Source: Actinomycetes bacterium (GTDB lineage: Bacteria; Actinomycetota; Thermoleophilia; BMS3ABIN01). Taken from it: a stretch of DNA of 64,000 nucleotides. Positions within the stretch are counted from its first letter, which is position 1; each line of letters opens with the position of its first letter. The notes under the pieces were generated by a model that saw nothing but the letters and a program-made list of their open reading frames with translations, made no database searches and was not told the origin of the DNA. The stretch spans positions 62,001-126,000 of the forward strand of contig JAJYXB010000004.1 of assembly GCA_021791195.1 (NCBI GenBank), in the 5' to 3' direction. The position numbers and the translations under genes were made by a program. Shown here one piece after another: positions 2,555 to 26,580 of the stretch.

Positions 2555-4315
2555 TTAGATCATGCAGTCATCAGACGTGGCGCTGATCGCCGGTCCCCCC
2601 CGGCGCCAAGGCCGGACGGCGGCGTAGACAGCGCCAACGGCAGCTATCAGAACAAGATTCGGCTTGTCGTATAGAATCATCAAATGCCCGCCATGCAGCA
2701 GCACGATGACCAGAGCCAGGAAAAGCACCGTCGCCAGGCAGCGGGGCCCTCTCCATACTTTAATCCCTTCATACACCAATAGGAAGGCAAGTCCCAGAAC
2801 CAGCGCCAGCCCGGGCCAGCCAAATTCCATCACCCAGGTGAGCGGCAGGCTGTCGACGGCGTGATGGTCGGTTCCCGGCGTCTCGAAAATGCCGACGCCA
2901 AACGGGTTCGCCTTCAGAACACCCCAGGCAAAGGGGAACAGGTCGAGCCGGTCACTGATGGAGCTGGACCGCGACAGCCACTGGTACGATATCATCGACG
3001 GCAGGTTCAGTTTGCCCTTCTGCAGGATGACCTGGTTGAGGATGATCTTGTTGTCGGAATCGACAACGCGGAAATCGCTATTTAAGTTCTCCCGGCCGTC
3101 GAAGCGGGGATCGTCCAGGTAAAAGGCGGTGCTGGTCACATCGCCCGTGTTGTTCTTGCCGATCGCCACCGTCTGCTTGTAGGAACCATCCGCACCGCCG
3201 GGAGCGCTCTGATCCCGGGAATCGTAGTCCACCTGGACGGACCCGTTGCCCACGTCCCGGTAAACCAGGATGACCGTCACCGGCCTGTGAATATCGCGCC
3301 ACTCGGGGCCGACGCTGAAATAAACGAAATTGTCGATCGGTGTCAGACCTTCGGACTTGCAGCGTTCGATGGCATACTGCCCGTCCTTGCCCTGATTCAG
3401 CCGCAGCCCCGACTCCATGATCCGGTTCCCGGAAAAAGTGATGCTGGCTTCCTGCCGGTCGAAGTAATCGACAGCGATGACCGCGACCGGAATGAGAACG
3501 ATCGCCGCCGTCAGCTTCCAGTGACGCCCGAACCAGCCGCGGGCGCGGAAAAGGATGAGCGGAAAGAGGATCAGCGTCCCCAGCAGCCAGGAGCCGCGGC
3601 TGAATGTCAGAAACCAGACGCTGACCGCGATGATCAGAAATAGCACCATTAGCAGCCGCCGGCGCCACAGGATCAGCATTCCGATCGGGATCGAGCTGAG
3701 CGTGATCGCGCCAAGGAAGCCGGGATGGCCGATCAGCGACCGGATGCGGTAGAACTGATCGCTGGCCTGGATGCGGGCGTCGGCGCCGATGACGTCGATC
3801 TGAACGGCGTTGAACAGCGGATTATCCTTGGCCACATACTCCAGCAGCCCGTAGATGCCGATGACGACAAAGGCCACGAGGGTCGAGAGCAGCACCAGCC
3901 TCACGTCGGAGCGGTCCTTCATCCCCAGCCTGACAAGAAAATAGACGCCGGCGCCGGTTAGCAGCCAGTTGAGGACAATCGACATGGTCGCAAGATCGAA
4001 GATGCCGCGGATCAGGAATATCAGTACCAGCGATACCACCAGCCTGTCGGCGAAATCTGTTTCCGGCAGCCGCCGCTCCAGGACCAGCCGGGCCGCAAGC
4101 GCACACCAGGCGAAACCGAAAGCGACACGAAAAGGGGTGATCAGAAGCGGCCCCAGATCGATCCGCGTGGGCCCGATCAGGTTGAGCAGATTGAGCAGGC
4201 CGGCGACGATGGCCAGGGCCACCCCGGCGCGCCAGCAGGCGTGCATCCGCCGGAACCAGACCTCGCGCCTGTCCGGGCGGCTTGCGGAAGCGCCTGAGGA
4301 GTCAGTGCCTGACAT
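2555..4315 (-). CDS. O-antigen ligase-like protein with large extracytoplasmic beta-rich insert
   Basis: 586 residues. About nine helices occupy residues 30-300, including FSRGSWLLG, typical of the Wzy_C/WaaL family. The large outer loop (about residues 295-465) is much longer than usual and looks like a soluble beta-sandwich: alternating short hydrophobic strands such as VTVILVYRDVG and GSVQVDYDSRD. Two or three further helices close the protein. The family ligates or polymerises polyprenyl-linked glycans; the insert may bind the glycan. It lies between the aldo/keto reductase and the GT39-like gene in one minus-strand operon. Ligase versus polymerase cannot be decided. Confidence 0.75.
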   Translation of the reverse strand: MSGTDSSGASASRPDRREVWFRRMHACWRAGVALAIVAGLLNLLNLIGPTRIDLGPLLITPFRVAFGFAWCALAARLVLERRLPETDFADRLVVSLVLIFLIRGIFDLATMSIVLNWLLTGAGVYFLVRLGMKDRSDVRLVLLSTLVAFVVIGIYGLLEYVAKDNPLFNAVQIDVIGADARIQASDQFYRIRSLIGHPGFLGAITLSSIPIGMLILWRRRLLMVLFLIIAVSVWFLTFSRGSWLLGTLILFPLILFRARGWFGRHWKLTAAIVLIPVAVIAVDYFDRQEASITFSGNRIMESGLRLNQGKDGQYAIERCKSEGLTPIDNFVYFSVGPEWRDIHRPVTVILVYRDVGNGSVQVDYDSRDQSAPGGADGSYKQTVAIGKNNTGDVTSTAFYLDDPRFDGRENLNSDFRVVDSDNKIILNQVILQKGKLNLPSMISYQWLSRSSSISDRLDLFPFAWGVLKANPFGVGIFETPGTDHHAVDSLPLTWVMEFGWPGLALVLGLAFLLVYEGIKVWRGPRCLATVLFLALVIVLLHGGHLMILYDKPNLVLIAAVGAVYAAVRPWRRGGPAISATSDDCMI

Positions 4316-4327
4316 CGCCAGCCGGCC

Positions 4328-5386
4328 TTATTTGCCGAGCAGCTTTTTCCGGACCAGCCGGCGCGCGCTCCTGCGTGCCATGAGGTCGACCCTGGCGCGC
4401 TCCAGCTGGCGCTTGATGGGAATGTGGTAGGGGCATTCCCGCTCGCATGCGCCGCAGTTGTCGCATGCCTCCAGGCTGGGATTGAGAGCGGCGTAGGCAT
4501 CGCGGGCCCAGTCCCAGGAGTGGTAACGGTCGAAGTACTCGTACAGGCGCAGGACCTGTTTGATGTCGATGCCCTGGGGGCAGACGACGCAGTTTTCGCA
4601 GCGCCGGCAGAAAACCTTGTAGCAACCGCGCTCGGAGGCGGCGATGGCTTCCATGATCTCGTCCCCGGTGACCTCTCCCCCAGCCTCCTCGACCGCCAGG
4701 TTCTCGTTCAGCTCGTCGAGATTGTAGGTGCCGACGATAGTGGAGTCCGGCGCCGCGCTGAAAACATAGCGCAGCGCCACCGAGGCGGTGGCCGCATAGC
4801 CGAAGACCATCGGCTTGATCGAGACAAAGCCGATGCCGCGCGACTGGATATCGGCGAGCAGGCCGGCGGCCGCCTCGCGGTCGATGAAGTTAAGCGGGAA
4901 TTCGACCACGTCGAAGGCCGCCATCTCCAGCGCCTCCAGGACCGTCTCCGGCTGGTGAGCGCTGATGCCGACATGCCGGATATAGCCGGCGTTGCGCATC
5001 TCCTCCAGCGCCTGGTAGGCGCCGCCGGGGCTCATGATCTCCCTGAGCACTCCCAGCGTCAGCACGTTGTGCAGCGAATAGACATCAATGTAATCCGTGC
5101 CAAAGTTCCTCAGGCTCTGCTCGATGTCCTTGCGCCCGTCGATCTTCTTGCGTTTGTGCGTGCTGGTGCCGAGCACTACCCCGTCACGGAAGCTTTTGAC
5201 CCCCAGGCCGATCTTGTTCTCGGAGTCGCGGTACATGCGCGAGGTGTAAAACAGGTTCATGCCGCGCTCGTGAGCGGTCTGGATGATCTGGTTGGTTTCC
5301 ATCTGGCTGATGTACTGGAAGGGGATGCCGCCCAGCCCCAGGCGGGACACCTCCAGGCCGGTATTCCCCAGCTTATGCGTCTGCAC
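4328..5386 (-). CDS. Aldo/keto reductase fused to a two-cluster ferredoxin domain, catalytic residues altered
   Basis: I start this gene at GTG 5386 rather than the track start at 5485: a GGAGG lies 6 nt upstream and the protein then begins with the normal family N-terminus (VQTHKLGNTGLEVSRLGLGG). It is 352 residues long and overlaps the methyltransferase stop by 14 bp. Residues 1-270 form the aldo/keto reductase barrel. The C-terminus has CRRCENCVVCP and CDNCGACERECP, two 4Fe-4S motifs. Compared with the second copy at 31383, the barrel has Tyr where the catalytic Asp of DTA should be and Thr in place of the catalytic Lys (GTSTH); Tyr of the MYRDSE motif and the His of SLHNV remain. It may have changed chemistry, accept electrons from ferredoxin, or be inactive as a classical reductase. 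Confidence 0.85.
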   Translation of the reverse strand: MQTHKLGNTGLEVSRLGLGGIPFQYISQMETNQIIQTAHERGMNLFYTSRMYRDSENKIGLGVKSFRDGVVLGTSTHKRKKIDGRKDIEQSLRNFGTDYIDVYSLHNVLTLGVLREIMSPGGAYQALEEMRNAGYIRHVGISAHQPETVLEALEMAAFDVVEFPLNFIDREAAAGLLADIQSRGIGFVSIKPMVFGYAATASVALRYVFSAAPDSTIVGTYNLDELNENLAVEEAGGEVTGDEIMEAIAASERGCYKVFCRRCENCVVCPQGIDIKQVLRLYEYFDRYHSWDWARDAYAALNPSLEACDNCGACERECPYHIPIKRQLERARVDLMARRSARRLVRKKLLGK

Positions 5387-6431
5387 TGCCAGCCTCCGCC
5401 TGTTCACCGGCATGCGCCGGCGCGCCGCTATCAGCGTTTTGGGACACCTGGGCGTTTTGGGACGCCTGGGGCGCCGTGCCGTCATCCGGCAGGCGCTTGA
5501 CCGCGTAGGCGGTCATCGCGGGCGACCAGCTGCTGCCGTCGATCAGGCGGCGGTAGAGCGACAGCCCCTTGACCGCCAGGCGGTCCGCCAGCGTCGGCGC
5601 ATGCACCACGTCATTGCCGCGCCCCAGCCGCCGCTGCTTGAAGTATTGCCAGTTCATCTGCAGGTAGTAGAGCGGCGCCTCGTAGACCACTTCCGAGACG
5701 CAGAAACCGGATGCCGCCAGCAGCCGCGCCAGGTTGGCGCGGTCAAAGCTGAACAGATGCCGCGGCGCCTCGTAGATGAACCAGTCCTCGCCCAGCAGGC
5801 GCGCTTCGGGCGCGGCGGCGTTCTGCGTATAGATCACCAGCAGCGCCTGCTCACCGGTGATGCGGGCGATCTCGCGGATAGTGCGGCTGGGGCTCTGCAC
5901 GTGCTCAAGCACCCCCCAGAGCGTCACCACATCGAAGGCGCCATCCTCGAAGCCGGCGTCCTCCAGCTCGCCAGCCCGGGCGTCGATGCCCAGGTCGTCG
6001 CGGGCGATGGCCACCATCTTCTCATTGTAGTCGACCCCGGATACGTCCCAGCCGTTCTCCTTCATGTAGTAGAGGAAGGAGCCGTCGCCGAAACCGATGT
6101 CCAGCAGCCGCCCGGGGCGCTTGTAAACTTCGATCCTGTCCCGGCGCGGGCCCAGCAGGCGGCCCAGCTCGTCCAGGCCGCGGTCCTTCAGCCCCGCCGC
6201 CTTGTTGTAAAGATCGTAATCCTCCTGGGGATAAAAACGCGCCATCTCTGCAAACGAGGGCCGCGGGCTGATGAACACCAGGCCGCAGTCCTGGCACTTC
6301 AGCAGCGGGAAAGAACCCTCGATGCCGAAGAGTCGGTCCCGGCCGGCGAACAGCAGCTCGTGATGCACGCCGCCGCAAACGTCGCAGACCGTCGCCGGCG
6401 GGGCGTTTCCTTCTCTGACGGCCGGGCTCAT
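5373..6431 (-). CDS. Zinc-ribbon class I SAM methyltransferase
   Basis: 352 residues from ATG 6431, which overlaps the upstream stop by 4 bp (ATGA); the track uses a GTG two codons earlier. The N-terminus has a CDVC...CQDC zinc ribbon followed by FISPRPS. SAM motif I is LLDIGFGDGSF at about residue 110, and the post-I region reads LEHVQSP, as in Methyltransf_23-type enzymes of polysaccharide clusters. The C-terminal 30 residues are Ala/Gln-rich and look disordered. First methyltransferase of five in the island; it follows a SPASM radical SAM gene. Likely methylates a sugar or carrier-linked intermediate in the cytoplasm; O-, N- or C-methylation is not readable. Confidence 0.85.
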   Translation of the reverse strand: MSPAVREGNAPPATVCDVCGGVHHELLFAGRDRLFGIEGSFPLLKCQDCGLVFISPRPSFAEMARFYPQEDYDLYNKAAGLKDRGLDELGRLLGPRRDRIEVYKRPGRLLDIGFGDGSFLYYMKENGWDVSGVDYNEKMVAIARDDLGIDARAGELEDAGFEDGAFDVVTLWGVLEHVQSPSRTIREIARITGEQALLVIYTQNAAAPEARLLGEDWFIYEAPRHLFSFDRANLARLLAASGFCVSEVVYEAPLYYLQMNWQYFKQRRLGRGNDVVHAPTLADRLAVKGLSLYRRLIDGSSWSPAMTAYAVKRLPDDGTAPQASQNAQVSQNADSGAPAHAGEQAEAGSADA

Positions 6432-7381
6432 TTCCACCCCATCCCCGGCACCGGGTACCAGACATTCTTGGTGTAAGCCCAGTAGTTACAGTTGCGGCAC
6501 AGCTCGATCTCGCCCCAGCGGCCCTGCTTGTGCAGCGCCCGGTAGCGCCTGAACTCCTCGCCCTTCCAAACCGATTCTATCGTCTGCCGGTTGAGGTCGC
6601 CGATGACGCCCATCTGGTCGAAATCCACGTTGCAGAAGCTGACTTTGCCGTCCCAGTTGACCGAGAAGGAATTCCACAAATAGGTGCAGGGATAGCGGCG
6701 CTCCGGCATCTGCATCAGACTGCCCACCTCCGGACGCAGCCCGCCCCAGTTGATGGCCGGGATCAGCAGGACGTCGACGTCATGCGATCCCCACTGCTCC
6801 TTGAACAGGCCGATCTCGTCCCTGGTGTCCTGCATCACGATCAGCTGCACCTTCACCCGCGGCCAGACGTAACCGCGTTCCCTGCGCATCGCCAGGAAGC
6901 GCTCGATGTTGGCGATCACCTGATCGAACCTGGTGGAGCCGCGCACTTTTTTGTATGTGTCCGCGGTGGCGGCGTTGACGCTGAAAAGCAGCACGTCCAG
7001 ACGCGAATCGAGCAGCTTCTCCGCCTTCTCCTCGTCCAGCAGCAGCGCATTGGTGTCCATGTTCAGCAGCGTGCTGGGAGCGATGGTCTTCATGTGCTCG
7101 ATCATGTCAAAGATGCGCGGATTCATCAGCGGCTCGCCATCCTTGTGCAGGCGCACCTCCGTGGGAGCATGCGTCGAAATCTCATGCGCGAGCTTGTCGA
7201 ACAGGTCCATGTCGATCTCACCCACGGGCCGGGTGAGATCCTTGCGCGGGCACATGCGGCAGCGCAGGTTACAATGATTGGTGGGTTCGATGTTGATGCG
7301 GCTGGGAAAATCTGGTGTGATCTCGCCGACGCGCGCGACCTTGTTTTTCACCAGGCTCTTCGTTTTGGCTTTAAGCGACAT
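6428..7381 (-). CDS. Radical SAM/SPASM protein
   Basis: 317 residues. The radical SAM cluster motif CNLRCRMC lies at about residue 36 after INIEPTNH. The C-terminus has a SPASM/twitch-type domain: CTYLWNSFSVNWDGKVSFC, then GDLNRQTIESVWKGEEF and CRNC. This layout is shared by enzymes that modify peptides, sugars and carrier-bound groups in surface polysaccharide clusters. It is closely similar in organisation to the protein at 23696. It sits between a B12 radical SAM gene (81 bp upstream) and a methyltransferase (overlapping), so it probably acts in the same tailoring step. Substrate unknown. Confidence 0.85.
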   Translation of the reverse strand: MSLKAKTKSLVKNKVARVGEITPDFPSRINIEPTNHCNLRCRMCPRKDLTRPVGEIDMDLFDKLAHEISTHAPTEVRLHKDGEPLMNPRIFDMIEHMKTIAPSTLLNMDTNALLLDEEKAEKLLDSRLDVLLFSVNAATADTYKKVRGSTRFDQVIANIERFLAMRRERGYVWPRVKVQLIVMQDTRDEIGLFKEQWGSHDVDVLLIPAINWGGLRPEVGSLMQMPERRYPCTYLWNSFSVNWDGKVSFCNVDFDQMGVIGDLNRQTIESVWKGEEFRRYRALHKQGRWGEIELCRNCNYWAYTKNVWYPVPGMGWK

Positions 7382-7462: not shown

Positions 7463-8998
7463 CTAGGCGATGGGTTCGAACGTTTCCTTCCTGAATGTCT
7501 TGAACAGCATCCACTCCAGCGGCATGCCGTAGAAATGGCTCCGCGCGCGAGCACGCGCCATCGCGTGCAGCAGCCGGTAAGCATATTTCTTCATGCCGCC
7601 GTTCTGGAGCTTGAGCTGCATGTTGCTGTCCGGGTAGGCGAAGGGATAATAGAAGCCGTTCACCTTCTCGATCATGCGGCGCTCTTCCGGCCCGACCCAG
7701 ACGCTCTCCTTCAGCGTGGCCGGGTTGTAGTCGGCCCACTCCTCGAGCGATTTCGGCTCCGGCATGCCGTACTTCACCGCCAGATCGTAAAGCGGCGTGC
7801 CCGGATACGGCGTGAACACAAAGATCTTGGTGCGGATGTCCGGATGGATCTGCTTTACCTTCTCGATGAAGCGCAGCAGGTCCTCGGTCGTCTCCTGCGG
7901 CTGCGTCCCCGGCGCGTGCGGAAAGCCGGTGATGAAGGTGAATGTGCCGCCGATACCATAATCGCGGCAGACGCGGGCGCTCTTGAGGTGATCCTCGGCG
8001 GTGGCGCCCTTGTTGATCAGCTGCAGCACCGGCTCGGCAGCTGACTCGGCGCCGACGATGATGCGTTTGCAGCCGCTTTCCCGGATCAGCTCCAGGACCT
8101 CCGGCTTGTAGCGGTGGAAGGTGTCCGGCCGTGCCGAGGCCACCCAGCGGATATTGAGACCGCTGGCGATGAACCCCTCACAGATCGCTTTGACGCGGTT
8201 CTGGTTGGCGAAGAAATTGGCGTCGCTGAAATTCACCTGATCGAGGTTGTAAGTTTTGACGATTTGCGTTACTTCCCGGATGACCCGTTCGGCATCCAGG
8301 CCCGTCCAGTGGCGCTGGTAGAGCTGGGCGTCAGCGCAGTAGCCGCACTTCCCCGGGCAGCCCTGGCTGGAATGGAACTCGATGGTGCGGATCTTCTCGT
8401 GGTTCCGGTGCTGGTTGATCTCGATGGCGCGGTTGACATCCAGCAGATGATAGGGCGCCGGCAAGTCGTCGTTGATGTTCAGCAGCGGCCGCGGCGGGTT
8501 GGTGACGATGCCAGCGGGGGTCCAGTAGACCGAACCGGTGACGCCCTCCGGAGCCTTGCCGGCGGCAAGCGACCCGACAATCTCCGGGAAGGTGACGTCA
8601 CCCTGGCCGACGCAGACGATGTCGCAGGCCTCCGACTCGCAGCACTGTTCAGGAAACAGGGACGGATGGTAGCCGCCCCAGACGATCGGCACCTCCGGGT
8701 TGATCGCCCGCACCTTGCGCGCCATCTCGATGCCACGCTTGATCTGATAGCCGGTGATGGAGCTGATGCCGACACAAACGGTATCGTCCAGGTTATTGAG
8801 GATTTCCTGCTCGTAGTTCGGGGTCACCCGCTCGTCCACCAGATGAAGCTCATACTTGCCCTCCAGCGGCGCCGCGATCACCGCAATGGCGAGCCCGAGC
8901 TCGATGCGGTAATGACCGTAAGCCGGCGTCGGAAAAAAGAGCGCGATCTTCTTCTTGCCGCGGCGGTCATAATCGGTCTTCCTCTGAACCATGTTCAT
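7463..8998 (-). CDS. B12-binding-domain radical SAM protein (type A, copy 1)
   Basis: Start set at ATG 8998 because AAGGA lies 6 nt upstream; the track start adds 39 residues of unlikely sequence. 511 residues. Residues about 1-160 are a Rossmann-type B12-binding domain without the usual DxHxxG histidine motif; it has VGISSITGYQ and VWGGYHPSLFPEQ. The radical SAM barrel starts near residue 205 with SSQGCPGKCGYC. The C-terminal 100 residues end in a conserved FYYPFAYPD and MPLEWMLFK pattern shared with five other proteins in this window. BchE-like or C-methylating B12 enzymes have this architecture. Likely oxygen-sensitive, cytoplasmic, acting on a glycan or lipid intermediate; the reaction is unknown. 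Confidence 0.88.
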   Translation of the reverse strand: MNMVQRKTDYDRRGKKKIALFFPTPAYGHYRIELGLAIAVIAAPLEGKYELHLVDERVTPNYEQEILNNLDDTVCVGISSITGYQIKRGIEMARKVRAINPEVPIVWGGYHPSLFPEQCCESEACDIVCVGQGDVTFPEIVGSLAAGKAPEGVTGSVYWTPAGIVTNPPRPLLNINDDLPAPYHLLDVNRAIEINQHRNHEKIRTIEFHSSQGCPGKCGYCADAQLYQRHWTGLDAERVIREVTQIVKTYNLDQVNFSDANFFANQNRVKAICEGFIASGLNIRWVASARPDTFHRYKPEVLELIRESGCKRIIVGAESAAEPVLQLINKGATAEDHLKSARVCRDYGIGGTFTFITGFPHAPGTQPQETTEDLLRFIEKVKQIHPDIRTKIFVFTPYPGTPLYDLAVKYGMPEPKSLEEWADYNPATLKESVWVGPEERRMIEKVNGFYYPFAYPDSNMQLKLQNGGMKKYAYRLLHAMARARARSHFYGMPLEWMLFKTFRKETFEPIA

Positions 8999-9223
8999 CA
9001 GATTCCTTTTTCTGTCCAGCCGCAAGGACGGCTGACCGCAAAGATTAGTAAACCCTCCGGCAGAAATTTGTCCGGAGTCACAGGAGGGGGAGCCGATCCC
9101 CTTGCCATCAGGCAATATTTTACCTTTTTTGGCACTGCATGAAGAAACCGCCCGTCGGCGGCTTCAGCCCAGCTGGTGATACTATCTTTGATTGTACAAT
9201 AGCCGGCGCGGCGCCGCCAGCAT
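8999..9223. other. Intergenic spacer between radical SAM and methyltransferase genes
   Basis: About 225 bp with no convincing gene. The left part carries the ribosome site of the radical SAM gene. The right part contains a GC hairpin (listed separately) and a short AT-rich stretch around 9180-9200 that could hold a promoter for the minus-strand gene, but no well-spaced -35/-10 pair could be assigned. Confidence 0.5.
9141..9165 (-). terminator. Possible intrinsic terminator
   Basis: On the minus strand CCGCC-GACG-GGCGG is followed by TTTCTTC. It lies about 60 bp after the stop of the methyltransferase gene at 9224. The stem is short and the T-tract is interrupted, so termination would be partial. 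Confidence 0.35.
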
Positions 9224-10153
9224 TTATGCCGGACCGGCTCCCGCCGGCTGCGGCACGGCGCCGGGTTTGCGGGCAAAAACATACAGGCTGGAACTGTGCT
9301 TCATCGATGCCATGATCCTGCCCACCGGGGTGTTCAGCAGGCGCAGGGGGCGCGGCAGGCTCGTGGGGAAAGTCGCGCTCGCGCTTCTCCCGATCCGGTT
9401 CCGTGTACGCATCGCCAGCCAGACCAGGAAGAACGGCAAAAAACTGATCGGCTGATGATGACCGCCCGTGACCCGCAGGCCGGAGCGCTCCAGCAAGCGG
9501 GTCAGACTCCTTGTTGAATACGAGAAGAGATGCCGGGGCACGTCGAAGCCTCCCCAGTACCGGCCCAGCAGGCTCGCTTCCGCTCCCCGGTTGAAAATGT
9601 ACAGGCACAGAACGCCGCCGGGTTTGAGGATCCGTGTCACCTCATCCATGAAAGCCTGGGGCTGACGGATGTGCTCGAGCACCCCCAGGATGGTGACAGC
9701 ATCGAAACTTTCATCGTCGTAGCCGATATCCTCGAGCTCGCCATAGCCCAGCTCGATGCCGTGCTCATCCCGGAAAGTCTCGACGATCTCGGAATCGATC
9801 TCTGTTCCCTTGACATCCCATCCGATTTCTTTCATCGCGGGCAGAAACATGCTGTTCCCAGTACCGATGTCCAGCAGGGTCCCAGGCTCCCGTTGCCGCA
9901 AATGTCCGAGGACGGGAGCGTAGAGGCCGGCTCCACCCGCGTGATGCCCGATCCGGAAGGGGTACTCATGCGTATAAAACTGCTGATGCTCTTCCCTGGT
10001 GGGTTGGGGATTCAGATAAACGAGGCCGCATTCCTCACAGCGGAAGATGGGAAAATGCGCAGCGGAATACAACGCTTTATCACGACCAACATAAAAAAGC
10101 CTGGAGTCATCCGAACTGCAGACGTAGCACGCCAGTCTGCCTGTCTTGCTCAT
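9224..10153 (-). CDS. Zinc-ribbon class I SAM methyltransferase
   Basis: Start chosen at ATG 10153 (MSKTGRLACYVC), which places the zinc ribbon at the N-terminus as in the other copies; the track adds 12 residues. 309 residues. Zinc ribbon CYVC...CEEC, then VYLNPQPT. SAM motif I is DIGTGNSMFLP near residue 95 and the acidic motif is VLEHIRQP. It is closely related to the next gene upstream (10336): both have the GTGNS variant, GWxVxGTE and HGIxL-GEL segments, so the two are probably tandem duplicates. The C-terminus ends in a Pro/Ala-rich tail. Presumably methylates a glycan precursor. Confidence 0.85.
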   Translation of the reverse strand: MSKTGRLACYVCSSDDSRLFYVGRDKALYSAAHFPIFRCEECGLVYLNPQPTREEHQQFYTHEYPFRIGHHAGGAGLYAPVLGHLRQREPGTLLDIGTGNSMFLPAMKEIGWDVKGTEIDSEIVETFRDEHGIELGYGELEDIGYDDESFDAVTILGVLEHIRQPQAFMDEVTRILKPGGVLCLYIFNRGAEASLLGRYWGGFDVPRHLFSYSTRSLTRLLERSGLRVTGGHHQPISFLPFFLVWLAMRTRNRIGRSASATFPTSLPRPLRLLNTPVGRIMASMKHSSSLYVFARKPGAVPQPAGAGPA

Positions 10154-10215
10154 GTCAAGCCCACTTCCCCGATGGACCGCCCGGTCCATGCCCTAGTGTC
10201 AATTCTATACCTATG

Positions 10216-10244
10216 AGGTTACATCGAGTTGCCTTGTTTTTCAA
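10216..10244 (-). promoter_or_regulatory. Possible promoter for the 9224 methyltransferase
   Basis: On the minus strand TTGAAA and TAACCT are separated by 17 nt, about 60 bp before the start codon. The -10 match is weak. Confidence 0.3.
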
Positions 10245-10287
10245 TAACCGGACTGTTCCGCAGACCGCGGACAATGTCTGCCGGTTA
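10245..10287. other. Stem-loop element in methyltransferase spacer
   Basis: TAACCGG and CAGAC on the left pair with the contiguous GTCTGCCGGTTA on the right, with a 9-nt bulge and a 10-nt loop. It lies between the two tandem methyltransferase genes just before the possible promoter. No T-tract follows, so it may be an RNA processing or pausing element rather than a terminator. Confidence 0.4.
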
Positions 10288-10335
10288 GAATGATCGCGCC
10301 TCGTGGGGGTATGAGCAGAAAGTGCCCGGGGAGAA

Positions 10336-11262
10336 TTACTGCTGGTTCCTCTTCCTGGCCAAAACATACATGTTGGAGCTTGCGCCTGACCGGGCCAGCG
10401 CGACTCCCAGCGGCAGGCTCAGCTTTTCCAGCAGCGCTGGCAGCCTGGGGACGTACACCGGCCGCCCGGAGCCGCTCAGCCGGTCACGCATCCGCGCCGC
10501 CGCCCACATGCCGCTGTAGGCCAGATAGTTCACCGGCCGGAAGTAGACCTGCTCCACCGCGAAACCGGCCCGTTCCAGCAGTTGCTCCAGTGTCCGGCGG
10601 GAAAAGCTGTAAAGATGGCGGGGCGCGTCAAATCCCAGCCAGAACCTGCCCAGCAGCCGGGCCTCGATGCTGCGATTGAAGCACCAGAGCCCGATCACCC
10701 CTCCCCTGGCGAGGATCCTGTCCGCCTCCTCAAGCAGCGACAGGGGATCGGAGACGTGCTCCAGCACCCCCATGATCGTCACCGCATCGAAACTGCCGCC
10801 CTCAAGCCCGGCGTCCTGCAACTCGCCGCAATGAAGCCCGATCCCATGCTGCTGGCGGAAGTACTGCACCAGGGAGGCGTCGACCTCGGTGCCGGCGACC
10901 TGCCAGCCCCGCTCCCGCATCAGCGGCAGGAAGGGGCTGTTGCCTGTGCCTATATCCAGCAGCCGGCCGGGTTCCTCCTGCTCCTCCAGAAAGCGGACCA
11001 CTGGCCAGTAATGCTCCACCGGCTGCGCCTGGTCCGCATTCTCAGCCGAAAAAAAATAGCGCCGGCCGTAGGCGGCGGCGTGCGACTGCGGTGAAGGGCG
11101 CGGATTCAGGTAGACCAGCCCGCAGCGGCGGCAACGCACAGCGCTGAATCTTTCCCGGCCGGGGAACATCTTGTCGCGGGCGGGGAACAGCCGCCGCTCG
11201 TCGCGGCCGCCGCACAGGGCGCACGCCACAGGGACGTTCCTTGACTTTATTAACTTGTTCAT
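10336..11262 (-). CDS. Zinc-ribbon class I SAM methyltransferase with repeat-encoded N-terminus
   Basis: 308 residues. Zinc ribbon CALC...CRRC, then VYLNPRPS; SAM motif I DIGTGNSPFLP near residue 98; VLEHVSDP as the acidic motif. Paralogous to the 9224 gene in almost every motif. The first ten codons (NKLIKSRNVP) are exactly the GGGACGTT-type repeat copy at 11231-11259 read through in frame, and ATG sits at the edge of the repeat. Either the repeat inserted over the original start and supplied a new one, or translation really begins at the GTG (VACALCGG) right after it. No clear ribosome site precedes the ATG. Confidence 0.82.
   Translation of the reverse strand: MNKLIKSRNVPVACALCGGRDERRLFPARDKMFPGRERFSAVRCRRCGLVYLNPRPSPQSHAAAYGRRYFFSAENADQAQPVEHYWPVVRFLEEQEEPGRLLDIGTGNSPFLPLMRERGWQVAGTEVDASLVQYFRQQHGIGLHCGELQDAGLEGGSFDAVTIMGVLEHVSDPLSLLEEADRILARGGVIGLWCFNRSIEARLLGRFWLGFDAPRHLYSFSRRTLEQLLERAGFAVEQVYFRPVNYLAYSGMWAAARMRDRLSGSGRPVYVPRLPALLEKLSLPLGVALARSGASSNMYVLARKRNQQ
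11231..11259 (+). repeat. GGGACGTT-headed repeat, copy 1
   Basis: Begins GGGACGTTCCTTGACTTTAT. It is in inverted orientation to the copy at 11296-11324 across a 36-bp loop, and lies inside the start of the methyltransferase gene. Confidence 0.8.
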
Positions 11263-11295
11263 ATGCTATGGCTCTGGATAGAGACGTAACCTGCG

Positions 11296-11324
11296 AAAAG
11301 TCAAGAAAGTTAAGGAACGTCCCT
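11296..11324 (-). repeat. GGGACGTT-headed repeat, copy 2
   Basis: Read on the minus strand it begins AGGGACGTTCCTTAACTTTC. It directly abuts the TAG stop of the radical SAM gene at 11325. With copy 1 it can form a long stem-loop between the two genes. Confidence 0.85.
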
Positions 11325-12788
11325 CTAGGTCAGTTTCAGCCGCCGCGCCAGATGCCATTCCCAGGGCAGCGAGTAAAAACCTGCCCGGACGCGGGCCCGG
11401 CAAACTCCGGTAAAGAGCCAGAAGAGCGGCTTGAGGGCGCCGGCGCGCGCCATCTTCTCCCGTCCCAACTGGTTGGGATAGGCCCAGGGGATGTAAAAAT
11501 CGGCGATCTGTTTCACCTTGATCTTCTGCTGGCGGGTGATCCACGGCGTCTGCACCGTGCGGGCGTCGTAGCCCGACCAGTCTTTCAGCGTCGCCGGCAT
11601 GGTGAAGCCGCTGGCTTCTCCCAGCCGCGTCAGCGGCGTCCCCGGGAACGGCGTGAAGAACAGCGTCGTCGTGCGCGTGTCGGCGTAGATCTCCTTCAGC
11701 TGCTTCATGAAATCCAGCGTCGTCTGCATCTGCTGCCAGCTCTCGGTGGGAAAGCCGAGGATGAAGACGTAGGAAGGCTGGATCTGGTGGTCGCGGCAGC
11801 GGCGCGTCGCTTCCAGCACATCCCGGGCTTCGTTGCCCTTGTTGATCAGTTTCAGCACCGAATCGTCGCCGGACTCCGCCCCCATCATGAATTTGGTGCA
11901 GCCGCTGTCGCGGATCAGCTTCAGGTCATCGCCGCTGAAGGCGAGCACCTGCGCCGGCCGGATGGTGGCGAACCACTCGAAACGCCGCGGCGCATCCAGA
12001 AAGCCCTGGCAGATCTCGCGCACGCGCCGTTTAGAGGCGAAAAAGTTATTGTCATCGAAGTAGACGCGGTCAAGGTTGTGGCGCTGCACCAGGCCGAGCA
12101 CCTCCGAGACCACCCGCTCCGCCGCCAGCCCTTTCCACTTGCGGCCGTAAGCCTCGGGATTGGAGCAGAAACCGCAGGCGTGCGGGCAGCCGAAGCTGGA
12201 GACATAGCTCAGGCCCCGGCGGGTATCGCCGTGGAAGCGGCGGTTGAAGTCCATGTAGCGCTCGATGTCAACCAGATCGTACGGCATCGCCGGAAACTCG
12301 TTGATGTCGGTCACCTTGCGGTCGGCGTTATGGATGACTTCACCGTCCCGCTTATATGACAGACCGGCAATGTCATCAAGCGCGCGCCGGCCATCGAGGT
12401 GTTCAGCCAGCTCCAGCATCGTCTGCTCGCCCTGACCGCGCACGACCAGGTCGATATTGGGATCCATGACCGTCTGCTCCGCCAGCAGCGAAGGATGGTA
12501 GCCGCCCCAGGCGACGGGTTTATCCGAGAAGGCGCGCTTGACCGCGGCGGATACTTCCAGGCCATCGGCGATCTGGTAGCCGGTCATCGAGCTGACCCCC
12601 AGCAGGTCGGCGTCCTCCATGCCGGCCAGCACCCTGGCGCGGTAATCCGGTTCGATGCGCGCGTCGACCACCTCGACCTCGACCCCGGCGGCCATCAGTG
12701 GCGCCGCCAGCGCCAGCAGACTGAGCGGTGGGCTGGCCTTGTGCTTGTTGTCCTTGTTTGTGAGCGGGAAGAATAAGAGAAATTTCAT
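11325..12788 (-). CDS. B12-binding-domain radical SAM protein (type A, copy 2)
   Basis: 487 residues from ATG 12788, overlapping the upstream methyltransferase stop by 4 bp (ATGA), so the two are translationally coupled. B12-type Rossmann domain at residues 1-150 with VVDARIEPDY instead of DxHxxG, then VSSMTGYQ and WGGYHPSLLAEQ. Radical SAM motif GCPHACGFC near residue 200, followed by KWKGLAAERVV. The later GAESGD and ILGFPTE barrel motifs are intact, and the C-terminus has FYIPWAYPN and LPWEWHLAR. Same subfamily as the proteins at 7463, 13897, 19965, 24994 and 35958. Tailoring enzyme of unknown reaction. Confidence 0.88.
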   Translation of the reverse strand: MKFLLFFPLTNKDNKHKASPPLSLLALAAPLMAAGVEVEVVDARIEPDYRARVLAGMEDADLLGVSSMTGYQIADGLEVSAAVKRAFSDKPVAWGGYHPSLLAEQTVMDPNIDLVVRGQGEQTMLELAEHLDGRRALDDIAGLSYKRDGEVIHNADRKVTDINEFPAMPYDLVDIERYMDFNRRFHGDTRRGLSYVSSFGCPHACGFCSNPEAYGRKWKGLAAERVVSEVLGLVQRHNLDRVYFDDNNFFASKRRVREICQGFLDAPRRFEWFATIRPAQVLAFSGDDLKLIRDSGCTKFMMGAESGDDSVLKLINKGNEARDVLEATRRCRDHQIQPSYVFILGFPTESWQQMQTTLDFMKQLKEIYADTRTTTLFFTPFPGTPLTRLGEASGFTMPATLKDWSGYDARTVQTPWITRQQKIKVKQIADFYIPWAYPNQLGREKMARAGALKPLFWLFTGVCRARVRAGFYSLPWEWHLARRLKLT

Positions 12789-13810
12789 CGCGTTTCCCCT
12801 GTGCCGGCCGGCGCCTCCCCCTGCGCGCGGGCTGCGTGGCAGTACGCCTCGATCATGATTCCCTGACCCAGCCGCGGCAGGATGCGCGCCGCCGGAACCA
12901 CCACCAGTTTGCGCATCAGGCGGTCCAGCGCCGAAGACGGGAAAACCCTGCCCCGCCGGATCTCGATGCTGCGCTCGGTCACATATGCCGCGCCATAGTG
13001 TAGCAAATCATCCTGTTTGAAGTGATTGTTCTCAATCAGCCGCCTCAGCGTCGCCGGCGCGAAATGCCAGACGTGGCGGGGCGCTTCGATATTGAACCAG
13101 TTGGGACCGAACCGCTTTGCCTCCCACGACCCGATATTGTGGGTCTGCACGACCAGCAGGCCGCCGGGCGCCAGGTGCTCGTGGCAGCGCCTGAGCAGGG
13201 AGTTGGGATCGTCGACATCCTCGATGACGCCGAACAGGGTGATACATTCATAGGCGCCATCCCAGTCGGCTTCGTGCTCGGCGCCCCCGGCGACATCAAG
13301 GCCGAGCGTGTCGCGGGCAAAGGCGGCCACCTTCTCGTTGAGCTCAATGCCGCGCACGTCCCAGCCCCGCCGTTTCATTCCCAGCATGAAATATCCGTCA
13401 CCGCAACCGACGTCCAGCAGGCGGCCGGGACGGTGGCGGCGGGTGATCTCGGCGATCTGCGGCGCAAAGCGGGCGATGCGCTCCTCCGGCTCGGCCCATT
13501 TGCGGCCCAGCGCCCAGTCGAACAGGGGATAGAGGTCGGAGAAAGCGGCGCGGCGTTCCTCGAACGGGGGCCGCGGCGACATCCGCAGCGTGCCACATTC
13601 GGGGCAGCGCACGATCCGGAACTCGCCGGGGGAGTTCAGCAGCGTATCCCTGACAGTCCATACCGGCCTGAGCGCGGCGGCGCCACAAACGGCGCAGTCC
13701 ACCGCGAGCTCCGCGCCGGCGAAATCGGGCAGCTCCGGGGACGTTGCTTTCCTAACGTTCCTGATTAATGCGTCATCTGCATTAAAGGAATCCATGAAAG
13801 TCCCATCCAT
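12785..13810 (-). CDS. Zinc-ribbon class I SAM methyltransferase, divergent
   Basis: 341 residues. Zinc ribbon CAVC...CPEC, then RMSPRPP; SAM motif I DVGCGDGYFMLG near residue 130. The usual LEHV after motif II is changed to IEDVDDP, so it is the most divergent of the five. The N-terminal segment IRNVRKATSPELP is encoded by the GGGGACGTTGC-type repeat at 13737-13770. Several possible starts exist (ATG 13810 or an ATG five codons later with GGGA upstream). It lies between two B12 radical SAM genes and overlaps the downstream one by 4 bp. Likely partner of one of them. Confidence 0.82.
   Translation of the reverse strand: MDGTFMDSFNADDALIRNVRKATSPELPDFAGAELAVDCAVCGAAALRPVWTVRDTLLNSPGEFRIVRCPECGTLRMSPRPPFEERRAAFSDLYPLFDWALGRKWAEPEERIARFAPQIAEITRRHRPGRLLDVGCGDGYFMLGMKRRGWDVRGIELNEKVAAFARDTLGLDVAGGAEHEADWDGAYECITLFGVIEDVDDPNSLLRRCHEHLAPGGLLVVQTHNIGSWEAKRFGPNWFNIEAPRHVWHFAPATLRRLIENNHFKQDDLLHYGAAYVTERSIEIRRGRVFPSSALDRLMRKLVVVPAARILPRLGQGIMIEAYCHAARAQGEAPAGTGETR
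13737..13770 (+). repeat. GGGACGTT-headed repeat, variant copy 3
   Basis: Begins GGGGACGTTGCTTTCCTAAC. It lies within the first codons of the methyltransferase gene and is inverted relative to copy 4. Confidence 0.75.
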
Positions 13811-13866
13811 TTCAGCAAATTCTCAATTTTGAATTATCATCCAGGCAAGGTTCCCGGCGTGCATCG

Positions 13867-13897
13867 CATTTAGGAACTTTAGGAAAGCAACGTCCCC
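13867..13897 (-). repeat. GGGACGTT-headed repeat, variant copy 4
   Basis: On the minus strand it begins GGGGACGTTGCTTTCCTAAA right after the TAG of the radical SAM gene at 13897. Copies 3 and 4 share the first 20 bases and frame the short intergenic region, as copies 1 and 2 do. Confidence 0.75.
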
Positions 13898-15342
13898 TAT
13901 CGGCTGCGCCACCGCTTCAGGCGCCATTCCAGCGGCACCCGGAACTCGCGCTTCTTCACACGCCAGGATGCGAGCTCATGCATGCCCCTGTAGGCAAGCG
14001 CCTTGGCGCCGCCAGCGCTCATCTTCTCTTTCAGCTCCGGCCCCGGCGAGGCGAAGGGCATGTAGAAGTCGATAATCATGTCAACCTTTTCCTTGTAGAC
14101 CGGATCCACCCAGGGCGTGTGCAGCTCGGTCAGGTCGAAGTCGGCCCAGGCCTCGGTATGCGGCGGCGGCATGAACCCCAGCCGCACGGCCTCATCATAC
14201 ATCGGCGCGCCGGGATAGGGCGCAAAAAAGAAGCCATGGACCTCGAAATCCGGGTTGATCGCCTTGATCCCCTCGATCATCTTCAGCGTTGCCTCGATGT
14301 CCTTCTGCGGCTGGCCGGGAAAGCCGAACATGGTCGTAAACCGCGCGATGATGCCCAGCCGGTTGCAGGTGCGGGCCGCCTTGAGCGTGTCCTCGACCGT
14401 CGTCTGTTTGCCGATGTGCTCCAGCGCCTCCTGCGAGCCGGACTCGGCGCCCAGCAGCAGCCGCTGGCAGCCGGCGTCGCGGATGAGCTGCTGCAGGTCC
14501 TCGGGGAAATCGATGAACTGCCTGGTGCGCACGTCCGCGGCCCATTTGAGGTCCAGTCCCCGTTCGATGATGCCCTCGCAGATCTCGCGCACGCGGCGCT
14601 TGCTGACAAAGAAATTCGTGTCGGCGAAATCGACGCCGTTGACGCCGTAGTTCTTCACCAGGTTCTCGAGGTCATCGACGACCCGCTGGGCGGAGAACCC
14701 TTTCCAGCCACGGCCGTACATCGAGGTCTCGGCGCAGAATCCGCAGCCGAACGGGCATCCCTGAGAGGAAAAATACTTCATGGTGCGGGTGGCGACGTCG
14801 TTGACCATGTACTTCTCCGTATCAATGACGTCGTAGGGCGTCGGCGGGAACTGGTCGATATCCACCAGAGCGGGGTAGTCGGCGATCACCGTCTCGCCGT
14901 CCCGCTTGTAACACAGGCCAGGTATTCCATCAAGTGGCGTACCCGCTGCTAGCCGCCGCGCCAGTTCCGTGGCCGGGATCTGTCCCTGGCCGCGGATGAC
15001 GATGTCCACGTAGCTTTCCGCCAGTGTCTGCTCCGGCAGCATGCTGGCGTGATATCCCCCCCACACCACCGGCACTTCCGGACAGGAGCGCTTCACGGCG
15101 CGCGAGATGGCGACCGCGTCGCGGATCTGCAGGCCGGTCATGACCGAAAGACCGATGTAGAGCGCTCCCCGGGCCGCCTCGAGGATGTCGGGAATGTGCG
15201 GATTGATGACGCGCCCGTCGACGATCTCGACGGCGAATCCGGCTTCCTGCAGCGGCGCCGCCAGCGCCATCAGCGGCAGCGGCGCCCAGACGTTGCTTTC
15301 GCGCCGCAGGCGCGGGAATACAAGGGCTATCTTCTCGCTCAT
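13897..15342 (-). CDS. B12-binding-domain radical SAM protein (type A, copy 3)
   Basis: Start at ATG 15342 (MSEKIALVFP) with GAGG 5 nt upstream; the track start is 11 codons earlier. 481 residues. B12-type domain to about residue 150 with IVDGRVINPH in place of DxHxxG, then LSVMTGLQ and WGGYHASMLPEQ. Radical SAM motif GCPFGCGFC near residue 195, followed by GRGWKGFSAQRVV; GAESGS and MFGFPGQ later. C-terminal FYMPFASPG and VPLEWRLKR match the subfamily. First gene of the leftmost minus-strand operon, transcribed away from the GT39 gene at 15511. Confidence 0.88.
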   Translation of the reverse strand: MSEKIALVFPRLRRESNVWAPLPLMALAAPLQEAGFAVEIVDGRVINPHIPDILEAARGALYIGLSVMTGLQIRDAVAISRAVKRSCPEVPVVWGGYHASMLPEQTLAESYVDIVIRGQGQIPATELARRLAAGTPLDGIPGLCYKRDGETVIADYPALVDIDQFPPTPYDVIDTEKYMVNDVATRTMKYFSSQGCPFGCGFCAETSMYGRGWKGFSAQRVVDDLENLVKNYGVNGVDFADTNFFVSKRRVREICEGIIERGLDLKWAADVRTRQFIDFPEDLQQLIRDAGCQRLLLGAESGSQEALEHIGKQTTVEDTLKAARTCNRLGIIARFTTMFGFPGQPQKDIEATLKMIEGIKAINPDFEVHGFFFAPYPGAPMYDEAVRLGFMPPPHTEAWADFDLTELHTPWVDPVYKEKVDMIIDFYMPFASPGPELKEKMSAGGAKALAYRGMHELASWRVKKREFRVPLEWRLKRWRSR

Positions 15343-15375
15343 AAAACCTCGGAAAATGCGGAGTTCAAAAAGCAA

Positions 15376-17142: not shown

Positions 17143-17180
17143 CCAATGTATAATCAACTGTCAAGTCTCTGGAAGGTTCG

Positions 17181-18850: not shown

Positions 18851-19936
18851 TTATTTTTCCCCGATCAGAACGATCTCTTCACCGGCGGCCGGCCTGAGCT
18901 TGAGCGCGGCCCATTCCACCACCTGCAGCCCCTTGGCCCCGAGCCGGTCGCTCATCGATACCCGGCCGCCCTGCTCGAAGTGGCCCGTGCGGCTGATCGC
19001 CCTGTCGCTGAAATAAAGCGAGCTGGCATGGCGGATTGTCGTAAGCGCGCTGATCTTGCCGAACCCGGCCTGCTCAGCCAGCCGGCGGAACGAAGGCATC
19101 GAAAAGACATACAGGTGCCGGGGCGAGTCCATGAACATCAGGTCGGCGTGGCGGAAGACCCGGTGCCCCCAGCTCTCGATATTGGGCGTGATGAACACAA
19201 ACCTTCCTCCAGGCTTGAGGATCCGATGGACCTCCTTAAGCAGGCTGACCGGATCGAAGACGTGCTCGATGACATGGTTGGAGATCACTGCGTCGAAATG
19301 GTTTTCGGGGAAATCCTGATCCTCGAGAACGCCCAGGCTGACCTTGAGGCCGCGGCTCATGGCATTCTTGCGTGCCTCGGGATCGCGGTCGACGCCTTCC
19401 GCCTGCCAGCCGAGGGCGTTCATGATCTCCAGCTGCTGGCCGCCGCCGCTGCCGATCTCCAGCAGCTTGCCGCCGGGGTTAGCCGGCAGGTAGAAGACTT
19501 TTGAGTCCAGTGACGCGCGCCAGCCGGGATGCAGGTACGCCAGATGGCCGATCAGGCCGGCGCGGCCGCCCTGGATGCCGCCATAATAACCGTAGCGGTT
19601 TTTCCAGTATTGCTTGCGGACCAGGCCGTACATCCGCTGTGCGAGGCTGCCGGACCGTTCATCCTGCTCGATCCAGCGCGCCGCGGCCGTGCCGTGATGG
19701 GTGAAGTAATCCCTGTAGGCCAGAGCGATGTCCTCCTCCAGCGGCATCGGATCCAGCCAGACCAGGCGGCAGTCGGGGTTGGTGCACTTGCGCGAGCTCC
19801 ACTTGCCAGGAGCCCCGAAAAAGGCGTCGACCAGGTCGCGGTAGAAGACGGTCCCGCTGGAACCGCAGACCGGACAGGCAGGACAGGGCCTGGTCCTGAT
19901 TTCCTCTCCCTGGGTTATTTTTTCCGTCGCTGACAT
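18851..19936 (-). CDS. Zinc-ribbon class I SAM methyltransferase
   Basis: 361 residues. N-terminal CPVC...CTNPDC zinc ribbon with a longer second knuckle than the other copies, then VWLDPMP. SAM motif I LEIGSGGGQQLE near residue 150; acidic motif VIEHVFDP; ILKPGGRFVF. About 30 residues longer in the linker (RMYGLVRKQYWKNRYGYYGG) than the other island methyltransferases. It lies 28 bp downstream of a B12 radical SAM gene, the same rSAM-then-methyltransferase order as in the left operon. Likely glycan methylation. Confidence 0.83.
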   Translation of the reverse strand: MSATEKITQGEEIRTRPCPACPVCGSSGTVFYRDLVDAFFGAPGKWSSRKCTNPDCRLVWLDPMPLEEDIALAYRDYFTHHGTAAARWIEQDERSGSLAQRMYGLVRKQYWKNRYGYYGGIQGGRAGLIGHLAYLHPGWRASLDSKVFYLPANPGGKLLEIGSGGGQQLEIMNALGWQAEGVDRDPEARKNAMSRGLKVSLGVLEDQDFPENHFDAVISNHVIEHVFDPVSLLKEVHRILKPGGRFVFITPNIESWGHRVFRHADLMFMDSPRHLYVFSMPSFRRLAEQAGFGKISALTTIRHASSLYFSDRAISRTGHFEQGGRVSMSDRLGAKGLQVVEWAALKLRPAAGEEIVLIGEK

Positions 19937-19964: not shown

Positions 19965-21497
19965 CTAGCGATAGCCTCGCAAAGCTCCGATCTGCGAGCC
20001 GATCCGCCGGAACCGCCGCGTGCGCCCCAGCCGCTGCATCAGCCGCCACTCGAGCGGCAGGCCGTAAAAGTCGAACCGGCAACGCAGCAGCGCCAGCCAG
20101 TGCAGCGGGTAAAGCAGCGGCTTCCACCTCATCCGCGACAGCCGCATGCGCATCTGTCTGCCGGGGTAGGCGAAGGGGAAATAAAAGTTGTTGCAGCGCT
20201 CCACCATGTCCTTCTCCGCCGCGGTGATCCAGGTGGTGCTGATGCTGGTCGACTCCCACTCGGCCCACTCTTCGGTCTTTTTCGGCAGAGGCAGCCGCAG
20301 GCTGAGGGCGATGTCATAGACCGGCGTGCCGGGATATGGGGTGACATAGAAAGTGACGGTCACTATCTCGGGATGGCGGCGGCGCATCTCCTTGATCAGC
20401 ATCAGCGTCAGCCAGATCTCGTTCTTTGCCTCGGGCAGCGCCTTGGGGAAGCCGACCATGAAGGCATAGCATCCCTGCACACCGGCCGCTTCCAGATTCA
20501 CGTTGGAACGGATGGCCTTCTCCGGCGACGTGCGCTTGTCGATCAGGTCCAGGATCGCCTGCGAGCCCGACTCAATGCCGATGCCGATCTGCGCGCAGCG
20601 GGTCTGCATAAGCAGCGCCGAGATCTCCGGCGTGATCTTTTCCATCTGGTCGGCGCGGGCGGCTCCGCTCCAGGTCATGCGCAGGCCGCGCTCGAGCCAC
20701 AGGGTCATGATCTCCTTCATCCGCTTCATGCTGGCGAACTGGTTGGAATCGGAGAAGGTGACGTGGTCCAGGCGGTAGCGGCGGCTGAGCGCCTCGATCT
20801 CGTCCACCACCTGCTCCGCGTTGCGGCCGCTCCACTTGCCGAACACTTTCGGCTCCACGCAGAAGGTGCACTTGAAGGGGCAACCCTGGCTGGAGACGAA
20901 CTGCAGCGCCCGGCGGCCGCCGTTCAGGCGGAAGAACTTCTCCATGTCCAGCAGCTCGTAGGGCGCCGGCGGGAAGCTGCTGACGTCGGCCATCGGCCGG
21001 TCAGGATTGCTGACCACCGCCCCGGCCGCGTCCCGGAATGTGACGCCGGCAAGACCCGTGAAACCTTCGCCGGCCTCGAGCCGGGAGACGATCTCCCGGA
21101 AAGAGACTTCGCCCTGGCCGCGCACGACGGCGTCCACATATGGCTCGCCGGCGGTCAGCTCCGGCAGCAGCGACGGATGATAACCGCCCCAGACGATGGG
21201 GAGGTCCGGATGGCGCTGTTTCAGCAGGCGCGAGAAATGGATCGAGCGTTTCAGCTGAAAGCCGGTGATGGTGCTGACACCGACGCACAGCGCCCCCTCT
21301 GCCGCCGCCAGCAGGTCACGCTCCGGATCGTCGTGCAGCCGCTCGTCGATCAGGACCACCTCGTAGCCATCCGCATGCAGCGGAGCGGCCACGGCCAGGA
21401 TCGAGAGCGGTATCTCCAGCGAGTAGTCTCCTACTTCAAGCGGCTGGGGAAACAGCAGAACGATCCTGGGCTTTGAGGTGTGAGGCATGCTTGACAA
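19965..21497 (-). CDS. B12-binding-domain radical SAM protein (type A, copy 4)
   Basis: 510 residues. TTG 21497 has AAGG five bases upstream; ATG 21488 is the alternative. B12-type domain with LIDERLHDDP in place of DxHxxG, VSTITGFQ and WGGYHPSLLPE. Radical SAM motif GCPFKCTFC near residue 205, then GKWSGRNAEQVV; later GIESGS and MVGFPK. C-terminal FYFPFAYPG and LPLEWRLMQ match the subfamily, with a 25-residue Arg-rich tail. It lies between the cysteine-less AsnB-like gene and a methyltransferase, all minus strand and closely spaced. Confidence 0.88.
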   Translation of the reverse strand: MSSMPHTSKPRIVLLFPQPLEVGDYSLEIPLSILAVAAPLHADGYEVVLIDERLHDDPERDLLAAAEGALCVGVSTITGFQLKRSIHFSRLLKQRHPDLPIVWGGYHPSLLPELTAGEPYVDAVVRGQGEVSFREIVSRLEAGEGFTGLAGVTFRDAAGAVVSNPDRPMADVSSFPPAPYELLDMEKFFRLNGGRRALQFVSSQGCPFKCTFCVEPKVFGKWSGRNAEQVVDEIEALSRRYRLDHVTFSDSNQFASMKRMKEIMTLWLERGLRMTWSGAARADQMEKITPEISALLMQTRCAQIGIGIESGSQAILDLIDKRTSPEKAIRSNVNLEAAGVQGCYAFMVGFPKALPEAKNEIWLTLMLIKEMRRRHPEIVTVTFYVTPYPGTPVYDIALSLRLPLPKKTEEWAEWESTSISTTWITAAEKDMVERCNNFYFPFAYPGRQMRMRLSRMRWKPLLYPLHWLALLRCRFDFYGLPLEWRLMQRLGRTRRFRRIGSQIGALRGYR

Positions 21498-23450: not shown

Positions 23451-23663
23451 AGGCTGAAGCGCCTCCGGCGGATGAAATAAAGCAGACGTTGTGATGCAAA
23501 GCTCATCAGATACCTTCGCTAAAAAAGATCCGGACAAAAAAACATTCTGACAGGACAGGCAGGCCCGCCAGAGCTCAACAATGATTTTACACTAAAATTC
23601 GCGGCAGGCGAGAGCGCGTAATTGCGCCGCGAACATGATCGGCAGCGGCGGCGGCAGTCATGA
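23451..23663. other. Spacer upstream of the AsnB-like gene
   Basis: About 210 bp without a gene. It separates the terminator of one minus-strand operon from the next and should contain a promoter for the 21576 gene. AT-rich patches are present (a TAAAAT on the minus strand near 23590, a T7 run near 23537) but I could not assign a well-spaced promoter. Confidence 0.4.
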
Positions 23664-26529: not shown

Positions 26530-26580
26530 CAATGAATGTTCTCTGTTGCCGGGCGGATTTTTTCCGTCCGGCCCTCCGGT

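Follow-up and report, generated by a model that had tools for sequence, protein, structure and literature searches.

A conserved operon of B12-type radical SAM and zinc-ribbon methyltransferase genes in a candidate surface-glycan locus of Thermoleophilia

We analyzed a 64,000-nucleotide stretch of an Actinomycetes bacterium genome (the window, which covers positions 62001-126000 of contig C24; the genome is 2.15 Mb in size and 97% complete), in which genes for enzymes with a B12-binding domain and a radical S-adenosylmethionine (SAM) domain alternate with genes for methyltransferases that carry an N-terminal zinc ribbon. The genes rA-rE and rG encode one B12/radical SAM subfamily, and MT1-MT5 encode the zinc-ribbon methyltransferases, all on the minus strand. 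An initial annotation took this arrangement for the serial duplication of a functional radical SAM-methyltransferase pair, followed by divergence. We found that the inherited unit is one vertically conserved operon and not a row of two-gene modules. The reading that we favor, at a probability of about 0.5, is that the stretch represents the tailoring arm of one conserved surface-glycan operon, in which sugars would be modified step by step. It is based on the genes present, their order and conservation, the relationships within each family, the predicted folds, and the residues that are conserved, from which we infer use of cobalamin, the sugar substrates, the types of reaction, and the reaction order. 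In the literature, no paper was found on this locus or on such an array in Thermoleophilia.

Protein searches named metagenome-assembled Thermoleophilia (Actinomycetota) as relatives, e.g., SURF_19, BMS3Abin01, B_ACT_02/11, and DBS2-1, and the family comparison comprised the window genome and the loci of 18 other genomes (n = 19). Both protein families are encoded in all 19 genomes. Because contigs of metagenome-assembled genomes are short, adjacency was scored only at loci with the neighboring gene visible. The common order, present in seven genera, is rC-MT4-rB-(0-2 methyltransferases)-rA-SPASM1-MT1-AKR1-ligase-like gene, where SPASM1 is a radical SAM/SPASM enzyme and AKR1 is an aldo/keto reductase. 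The gene rC adjoins MT4 in 16/16 loci, MT4 is followed by rB in 15/16, rA by SPASM1 in 14/14, and AKR1 by the ligase-like gene in 13/13, while the run SPASM1-MT1-AKR1 was found in 13/13; the rC orthologues within the family are 75-90% identical. In the window genome, five of the six strongest ribbon-methyltransferase profile matches fall in one 14.6-kb stretch. Since these matches are local and the order is kept across the family, the clustering of the two kinds of genes is not due to chance.

Between these fixed points, some of the methyltransferase genes come and go. The pairing of rC with MT4 is constant in the relatives, and the pairings of rD with MT5 and of rB with MT3 are not: rB is followed by MT2 or MT3 in only 5/14 loci, and in most loci it stands straight before rA. 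In genomes G068 and G257, MT3 orthologues (69-70% identity) are located on other contigs beside unrelated genes, and there rB directly precedes rA; in G259, a 50% relative of MT3 lies upstream of rD. MT3 is, thus, detachable from rB. Among the genomes examined, MT2 was seen only in the window genome, and MT5 only in the genus of the window and in G259. In G251, rA and rB are gone from the operon, and MT4 and MT1 are retained. It should be noted that DBS2-5.bin27, the operon of which is without rA and rB, has divergent rB-like and rA-like genes (40-44% identity) side by side (L022:4125-7097), outside any glycan locus and with no methyltransferase. Two apparent exceptions were rejected: two methyltransferase copies in G255 proved to be a single MT3 reading frame split by a frameshift (L009:5000-6060; decay or an assembly error may be responsible), and an rC-MT4 fusion in G259 (a 642-aa frame) is merely a case of overlapping open frames. 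Elsewhere in the sampled class, related radical SAM genes are present in five genomes, all from one other family, and no ribbon methyltransferase was found beside the B12-radical SAM array in the four of these that were examined (one on a short contig).

The rule that a radical SAM gene is followed by a methyltransferase gene, as stated in the initial annotation, holds on the minus strand for rC-MT4, rB-MT3/MT2, and rD-MT5, i.e., for three of six radical SAM copies, because rA precedes SPASM1, which only then is followed by MT1, and because rE and rG are without a methyltransferase; these three cases had been overlooked. The 4-bp overlap described between MT4 and rB (the genes at 12785 and 11325) was confirmed by direct reading (ATGA).

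The domains PF02310 (B12-binding) and PF04055 (radical SAM) are on one chain, above the Pfam cut-offs, in 10/10 radical SAM proteins, and the cluster motif CX3CX2C (Cys196/200/203, alignment numbering) is invariant in 58/58 sequences. The corrinoid assembly gene CobS is present. The domain PF13489 was detected in MT1-MT5. The two CxxC pairs that had been ascribed to each methyltransferase are found in MT1-MT4, whereas the second pair of MT5 is CX4C (CTNPDC). Across 46 family members, some of them from other actinobacteria, conservation of each of the four ribbon cysteines is 90% or higher; the ribbon is therefore a trait of the family and is not specific to this locus. A search of the PDB with a ribbon-only profile gave no useful match.

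By content, the surroundings look like a surface-glycan locus: there are a WbaP-type initiating sugar transferase, three Wzx-like flippases, PMT_2-type and GT1/GT2 transferases, a DegT aminotransferase, two asparagine-synthase-like amidotransferases, and a second Fe-S aldo/keto reductase. In the pathway that we propose, the substrate of each step would be a sugar, which is probably attached to a nucleotide or a lipid. The enzymes rC, rB, and rA, together with the SPASM enzyme, would abstract hydrogen at unactivated ring carbons, leading to dehydration, rearrangement, or C-methylation; MT4, MT1, and, optionally, MT2, MT3, and MT5 would place a methyl group on a neighboring position in the manner of TcaB9/KijD1; AKR1, the proposed reducing partner, would reduce the remaining carbonyl; and the flippase and ligase-like proteins would export and attach the product.

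TcaB9, KijD1, and MtmC are sugar C-3 methyltransferases, and the first two are zinc-dependent. All three match the model of MT4 (predicted local distance difference test score, pLDDT, 88.9) over ribbon and core, whereas other class I enzymes match it mainly in the core. The methyltransferase profile matched TcaB9/KijD1 with 81 bits in a region comprising both ribbon and catalytic core (profile positions 11-291 in the alignment to TcaB9), and the Foldseek alignments to KijD1 and TcaB9 span ~320 columns. As in TcaB9, there is an N-terminal zinc domain with four cysteines, all of which are aligned, ahead of a class I core. Using equivalences from profile alignments rather than structure superposition, we found that the histidine (His246 of MT4) aligned to TcaB9 His225, the presumed catalytic base of TcaB9, is invariant in 46/46 members; according to the structure titles, the depositors of TcaB9 structures mutated His225, Glu224, His181, Tyr222, and Tyr76. 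The position of His181 is occupied by His in MT1, MT2, MT3, and MT5, and by Asp (Asp198) in every MT4 orthologue examined.

Several observations weigh against the favored reading. At the position of TcaB9 Glu224, MT1-MT5 have Arg, so that His225 and Glu224 do not occur jointly; the proteins are ~310-360 residues long, versus ~415, and are missing the C-terminal domain; and neither the PF08421 zinc domain nor the PF08484 C-terminal domain was matched at E<=0.001. None of the radical SAM proteins or methyltransferases tested reached an NCBIfam equivalog cut-off. The cluster motif CX3CX2C differs from the CX3CX3C of the diol dehydratase AprD4 (one extra residue in the alignment); hence, nothing points to diol dehydration in particular. 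Cytoplasmic glycosyltransferases are also few in the locus relative to its many tailoring enzymes. Because the methyltransferases are without Glu224, PF08421, PF08484, and the C-terminal part of TcaB9, O-methylation is equally possible, and, if uncoupled from radical chemistry, it is an equally simple alternative to the coupled mechanism. The methyltransferases may work like TcaB9, but, by the tests made, they are not members of the TcaB9 family.

In another explanation, which we consider possible but somewhat unlikely, the methyltransferases would be ordinary sugar O- or carboxyl-methyltransferases recruited singly to a glycan locus, and the adjoining radical SAM enzymes would act on other residues, with no mechanistic meaning in the adjacency. 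The Arg in place of Glu224, the mobility of MT5 and MT3, and the occurrence of ribbon methyltransferases of the same family in many actinobacteria agree with it; however, the adjacencies rC-MT4 and SPASM1-MT1 are invariant wherever visible, and B12-radical SAM arrays of Acidobacteria also hold a methyltransferase with a zinc ribbon, albeit a different one. A far more specific version of the coupled mechanism, which we regard as improbable in its entirety, is a relay on a surface polysaccharide that has not been described before, from B12-type radical SAM enzyme to C-methylation by a methyltransferase to aldo/keto reductase, yielding methyl-branched sugars. Radical SAM enzymes with an aliphatic lower face would produce a keto/deoxy sugar, a short TcaB9-like methyltransferase would methylate the activated neighboring carbon, and the Fe-S aldo/keto reductase would reset the carbonyl.

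Serial duplication of pairs appears improbable as well. If the pairs had been copied as units, the trees of the two families would be expected to match, and this check, proposed in the initial annotation, was performed on 63 methyltransferases, with outgroups that were actinobacterial only, and on 57 radical SAM proteins, with topology constraints compared by the approximately unbiased (AU) test. Each family does consist of paralogues. MT1-MT4 form one clade among the sampled actinobacterial homologues (support 98/93), branching as (MT4,(MT1,(MT2,MT3))), with MT1 sister to MT2/3 (97/84); MT5 groups with other actinobacterial proteins, and a single clade of MT1-MT5 was rejected (AU p=2.2e-7), which makes MT5 an independent recruit. 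The proteins rA-rE and rG share 33-44% identity, whereas rF, rH, rI, and rJ are more distant. In the radical SAM tree, rD and the unpaired rE are sisters (100/97), and rA groups with rD/rE (95/94) and not with rB; no order is given among rB, rC, rG, and the archaeal and acidobacterial groups. A clade of rA-rD (all four) without rE was rejected (p=0.0175). Since MT5 belongs to another lineage and rD is the sister of the methyltransferase-less rE, it is certain that the rD-MT5 pair did not arise as a copy of the others, and matching trees were rejected for it. For rC/MT4, rB/MT3, and rA/MT1, a matching radical SAM tree was not rejected (rA+rB, AU p=0.19; rA+rB+rC, AU p=0.13), so that the trees leave these three pairs undecided. 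A lineage-specific clade of rA-rE and rG, apart from the archaeal and acidobacterial homologues, was neither supported nor rejected (AU p=0.26). Synteny is more decisive than the trees: MT1 comes after SPASM1 and not after rA, MT3 translocates, and rB stands directly before rA in most loci. Paralogy inside each family is the part of the earlier proposal that stands. The idea of pairs copied together mostly fails: the data refute it for rD-MT5, and they refute a fixed partnership of MT2/3 with rB.

The hopanoid enzymes HpnJ and HpnH and ladderane-type B12-radical SAM enzymes act on lipids. It is very unlikely that the product of the locus is not a polysaccharide but a membrane lipid, or the head group of one, of an unusual kind. 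In favor of this, HpnJ is among the best NCBIfam matches of rA, rB, and rC (134-138 bits), and the cluster includes a gene resembling purine nucleoside phosphorylases; against it, a match to HpnJ would need 577.6 bits to reach the cut-off, SPASM1 and SPASM3 score only 35-36 bits against HpnH (cut-off 225), and the flippases, the WbaP-like transferase, and the GT-C enzymes point to a polyprenyl-linked glycan.

Table. Genes of the conserved operon and related genes in the window.
Gene	Product	Coordinates	Strand	Support
rC	B12-binding/radical SAM; first gene of core operon	13897..15375	-	PF02310 61.8 bits, PF04055 67.5 bits
MT4	Zinc-ribbon class I methyltransferase	12785..13810	-	PF13489 89 bits
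rB	B12-binding/radical SAM	11325..12788	-	PF02310/PF04055
MT3	Zinc-ribbon methyltransferase; optional in operon	10336..11262	-	PF13489 92.6 bits
MT2	Zinc-ribbon methyltransferase; sister to MT3 group	9224..10189	-	46% identity to MT3; tree
rA	B12-binding/radical SAM	7463..9115	-	PF02310/PF04055
SPASM1	Radical SAM/SPASM enzyme	6428..7381	-	PF04055 65.6 bits, PF13186 57.2 bits
MT1	Zinc-ribbon methyltransferase	5373..6437	-	PF13489 97.9 bits
AKR1	Aldo/keto reductase with C-terminal 4Fe-4S dicluster-type domain	4328..5485	-	PF00248 97.6 bits, Fer4_9
	O-antigen-ligase-like membrane protein; end of conserved core	2555..4315	-	Wzy_C 24.1 bits, below Pfam cut-off 31.7
rD	B12-binding/radical SAM; sister of rE	19965..21497	-	PF02310/PF04055
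MT5	Zinc-ribbon methyltransferase; separate lineage, second pair CX4C	18851..19936	-	PF13489 89.4 bits
rE	Same radical SAM subfamily; no adjoining methyltransferase	24994..26532	-	44% identity to rD
rG	Same radical SAM subfamily; no adjoining methyltransferase	35958..37430	-	33-38% identity to rA-rE

The true start of rA is probably downstream of 9115. In the whole window genome there are 38 radical SAM and 16 B12-binding-domain matches, and about one third of the radical SAM genes are located in the window. The interval between rD and rC is variable: related genomes have a ~650-aa, apparently secreted protein (L114:11329-13296, L118:11500-13458), the L114 copy of which had no Pfam match, and in the window it is replaced by two divergent membrane proteins (15511-18848). 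In a genome of the same genus, a NodU/CmcH-type carbamoyltransferase is encoded between the rG-like and MT5 genes (L110:13223-15034); it was not seen in the window. The amidotransferase at 21576-23537 is closest to the amidotransferase of the XrtA/PEP-CTERM system (450 bits, cut-off 817). The gene at 50051-50836, in a radical-SAM-rich cluster, belongs to the nucleoside phosphorylase family and has a relative near rH in L037; its product could clear 5'-deoxyadenosine or S-adenosylhomocysteine (SAH) formed by the radical SAM and methyltransferase enzymes, although a dedicated methylthioadenosine (MTA)/SAH nucleosidase is unsupported, the match being only a weak DeoD-type one.

Outside Actinomycetota, three acidobacterial loci (L053, L068, and L074, the last from Edaphobacter aggregans) contain several B12-radical SAM genes and a class I methyltransferase with a different zinc ribbon; the arrays at L074 6000-20500, at L053 9995-19576, and in L068 hold class I methyltransferases, one of them with this ribbon. 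The same pattern found no ribbon methyltransferase in the archaeal loci fetched (Diapherotrites, Methanoperedens, and ANME-2). Because the acidobacterial arrays carry a ribbon methyltransferase of their own, different type, there is a weak suggestion that the two enzyme types were brought together more than once. To our knowledge, a small number of antibiotic pathways account for most of the B12-radical SAM sugar chemistry that is known. The family studied here keeps, as a whole, a B12-type radical SAM array in a putative glycan locus, with proteins resembling sugar C-methyltransferases and a reductase alongside; if our reading is right, it offers many natural variants of enzymes for which sequence is not yet a guide to the outcome of the reaction. 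As related multi-gene radical SAM arrays are present in cultured Acidobacteria (Edaphobacter aggregans), the idea is open to laboratory testing.

Among characterized radical SAM enzymes, BchE and HpnJ are in the top NCBIfam matches (102-153 bits), far from their cut-offs of 481 and 578 bits. The nearest solved folds to the model of rC (pLDDT 93) are TsrM, AprD4, OxsB, MgmA, TokK, and CysS; TsrM, OxsB, TokK, MgmA, and CysS share with the family both the B12-binding plus radical SAM architecture and the fold. In the sequence alignment, the position of TsrM Arg69 and of an Asn of OxsB, at the lower face of cobalamin (PMC8992657), is aliphatic in 58/58 family members (37 Met, 9 Ile, 6 Leu, and 6 Val), with Met in rB, rC, rE, and rG and Ile in rA and rD, and is followed by an invariant Thr; the lower-face residue is considered an open determinant of the chemistry (PMC8992657). 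Cobalamin-dependent C-methylation of sugars is exemplified by GenK and GenD1 of gentamicin biosynthesis, and AprD4 is a radical SAM diol dehydratase that works with the reductase AprD3 on paromamine (PMC5461906). The match to the AprD4 family NF033070 is only 34-82 bits (cut-off 500), and the reductase of the operon is an Fe-S aldo/keto reductase. AprD4 gave both the best mutual TM-score with the rC model (0.72/0.76) and the best solved profile match of the radical SAM family (111.5 bits), and its reaction takes place on the ring of a sugar, with an NADPH-dependent reductase as a separate protein (PMC5461906).

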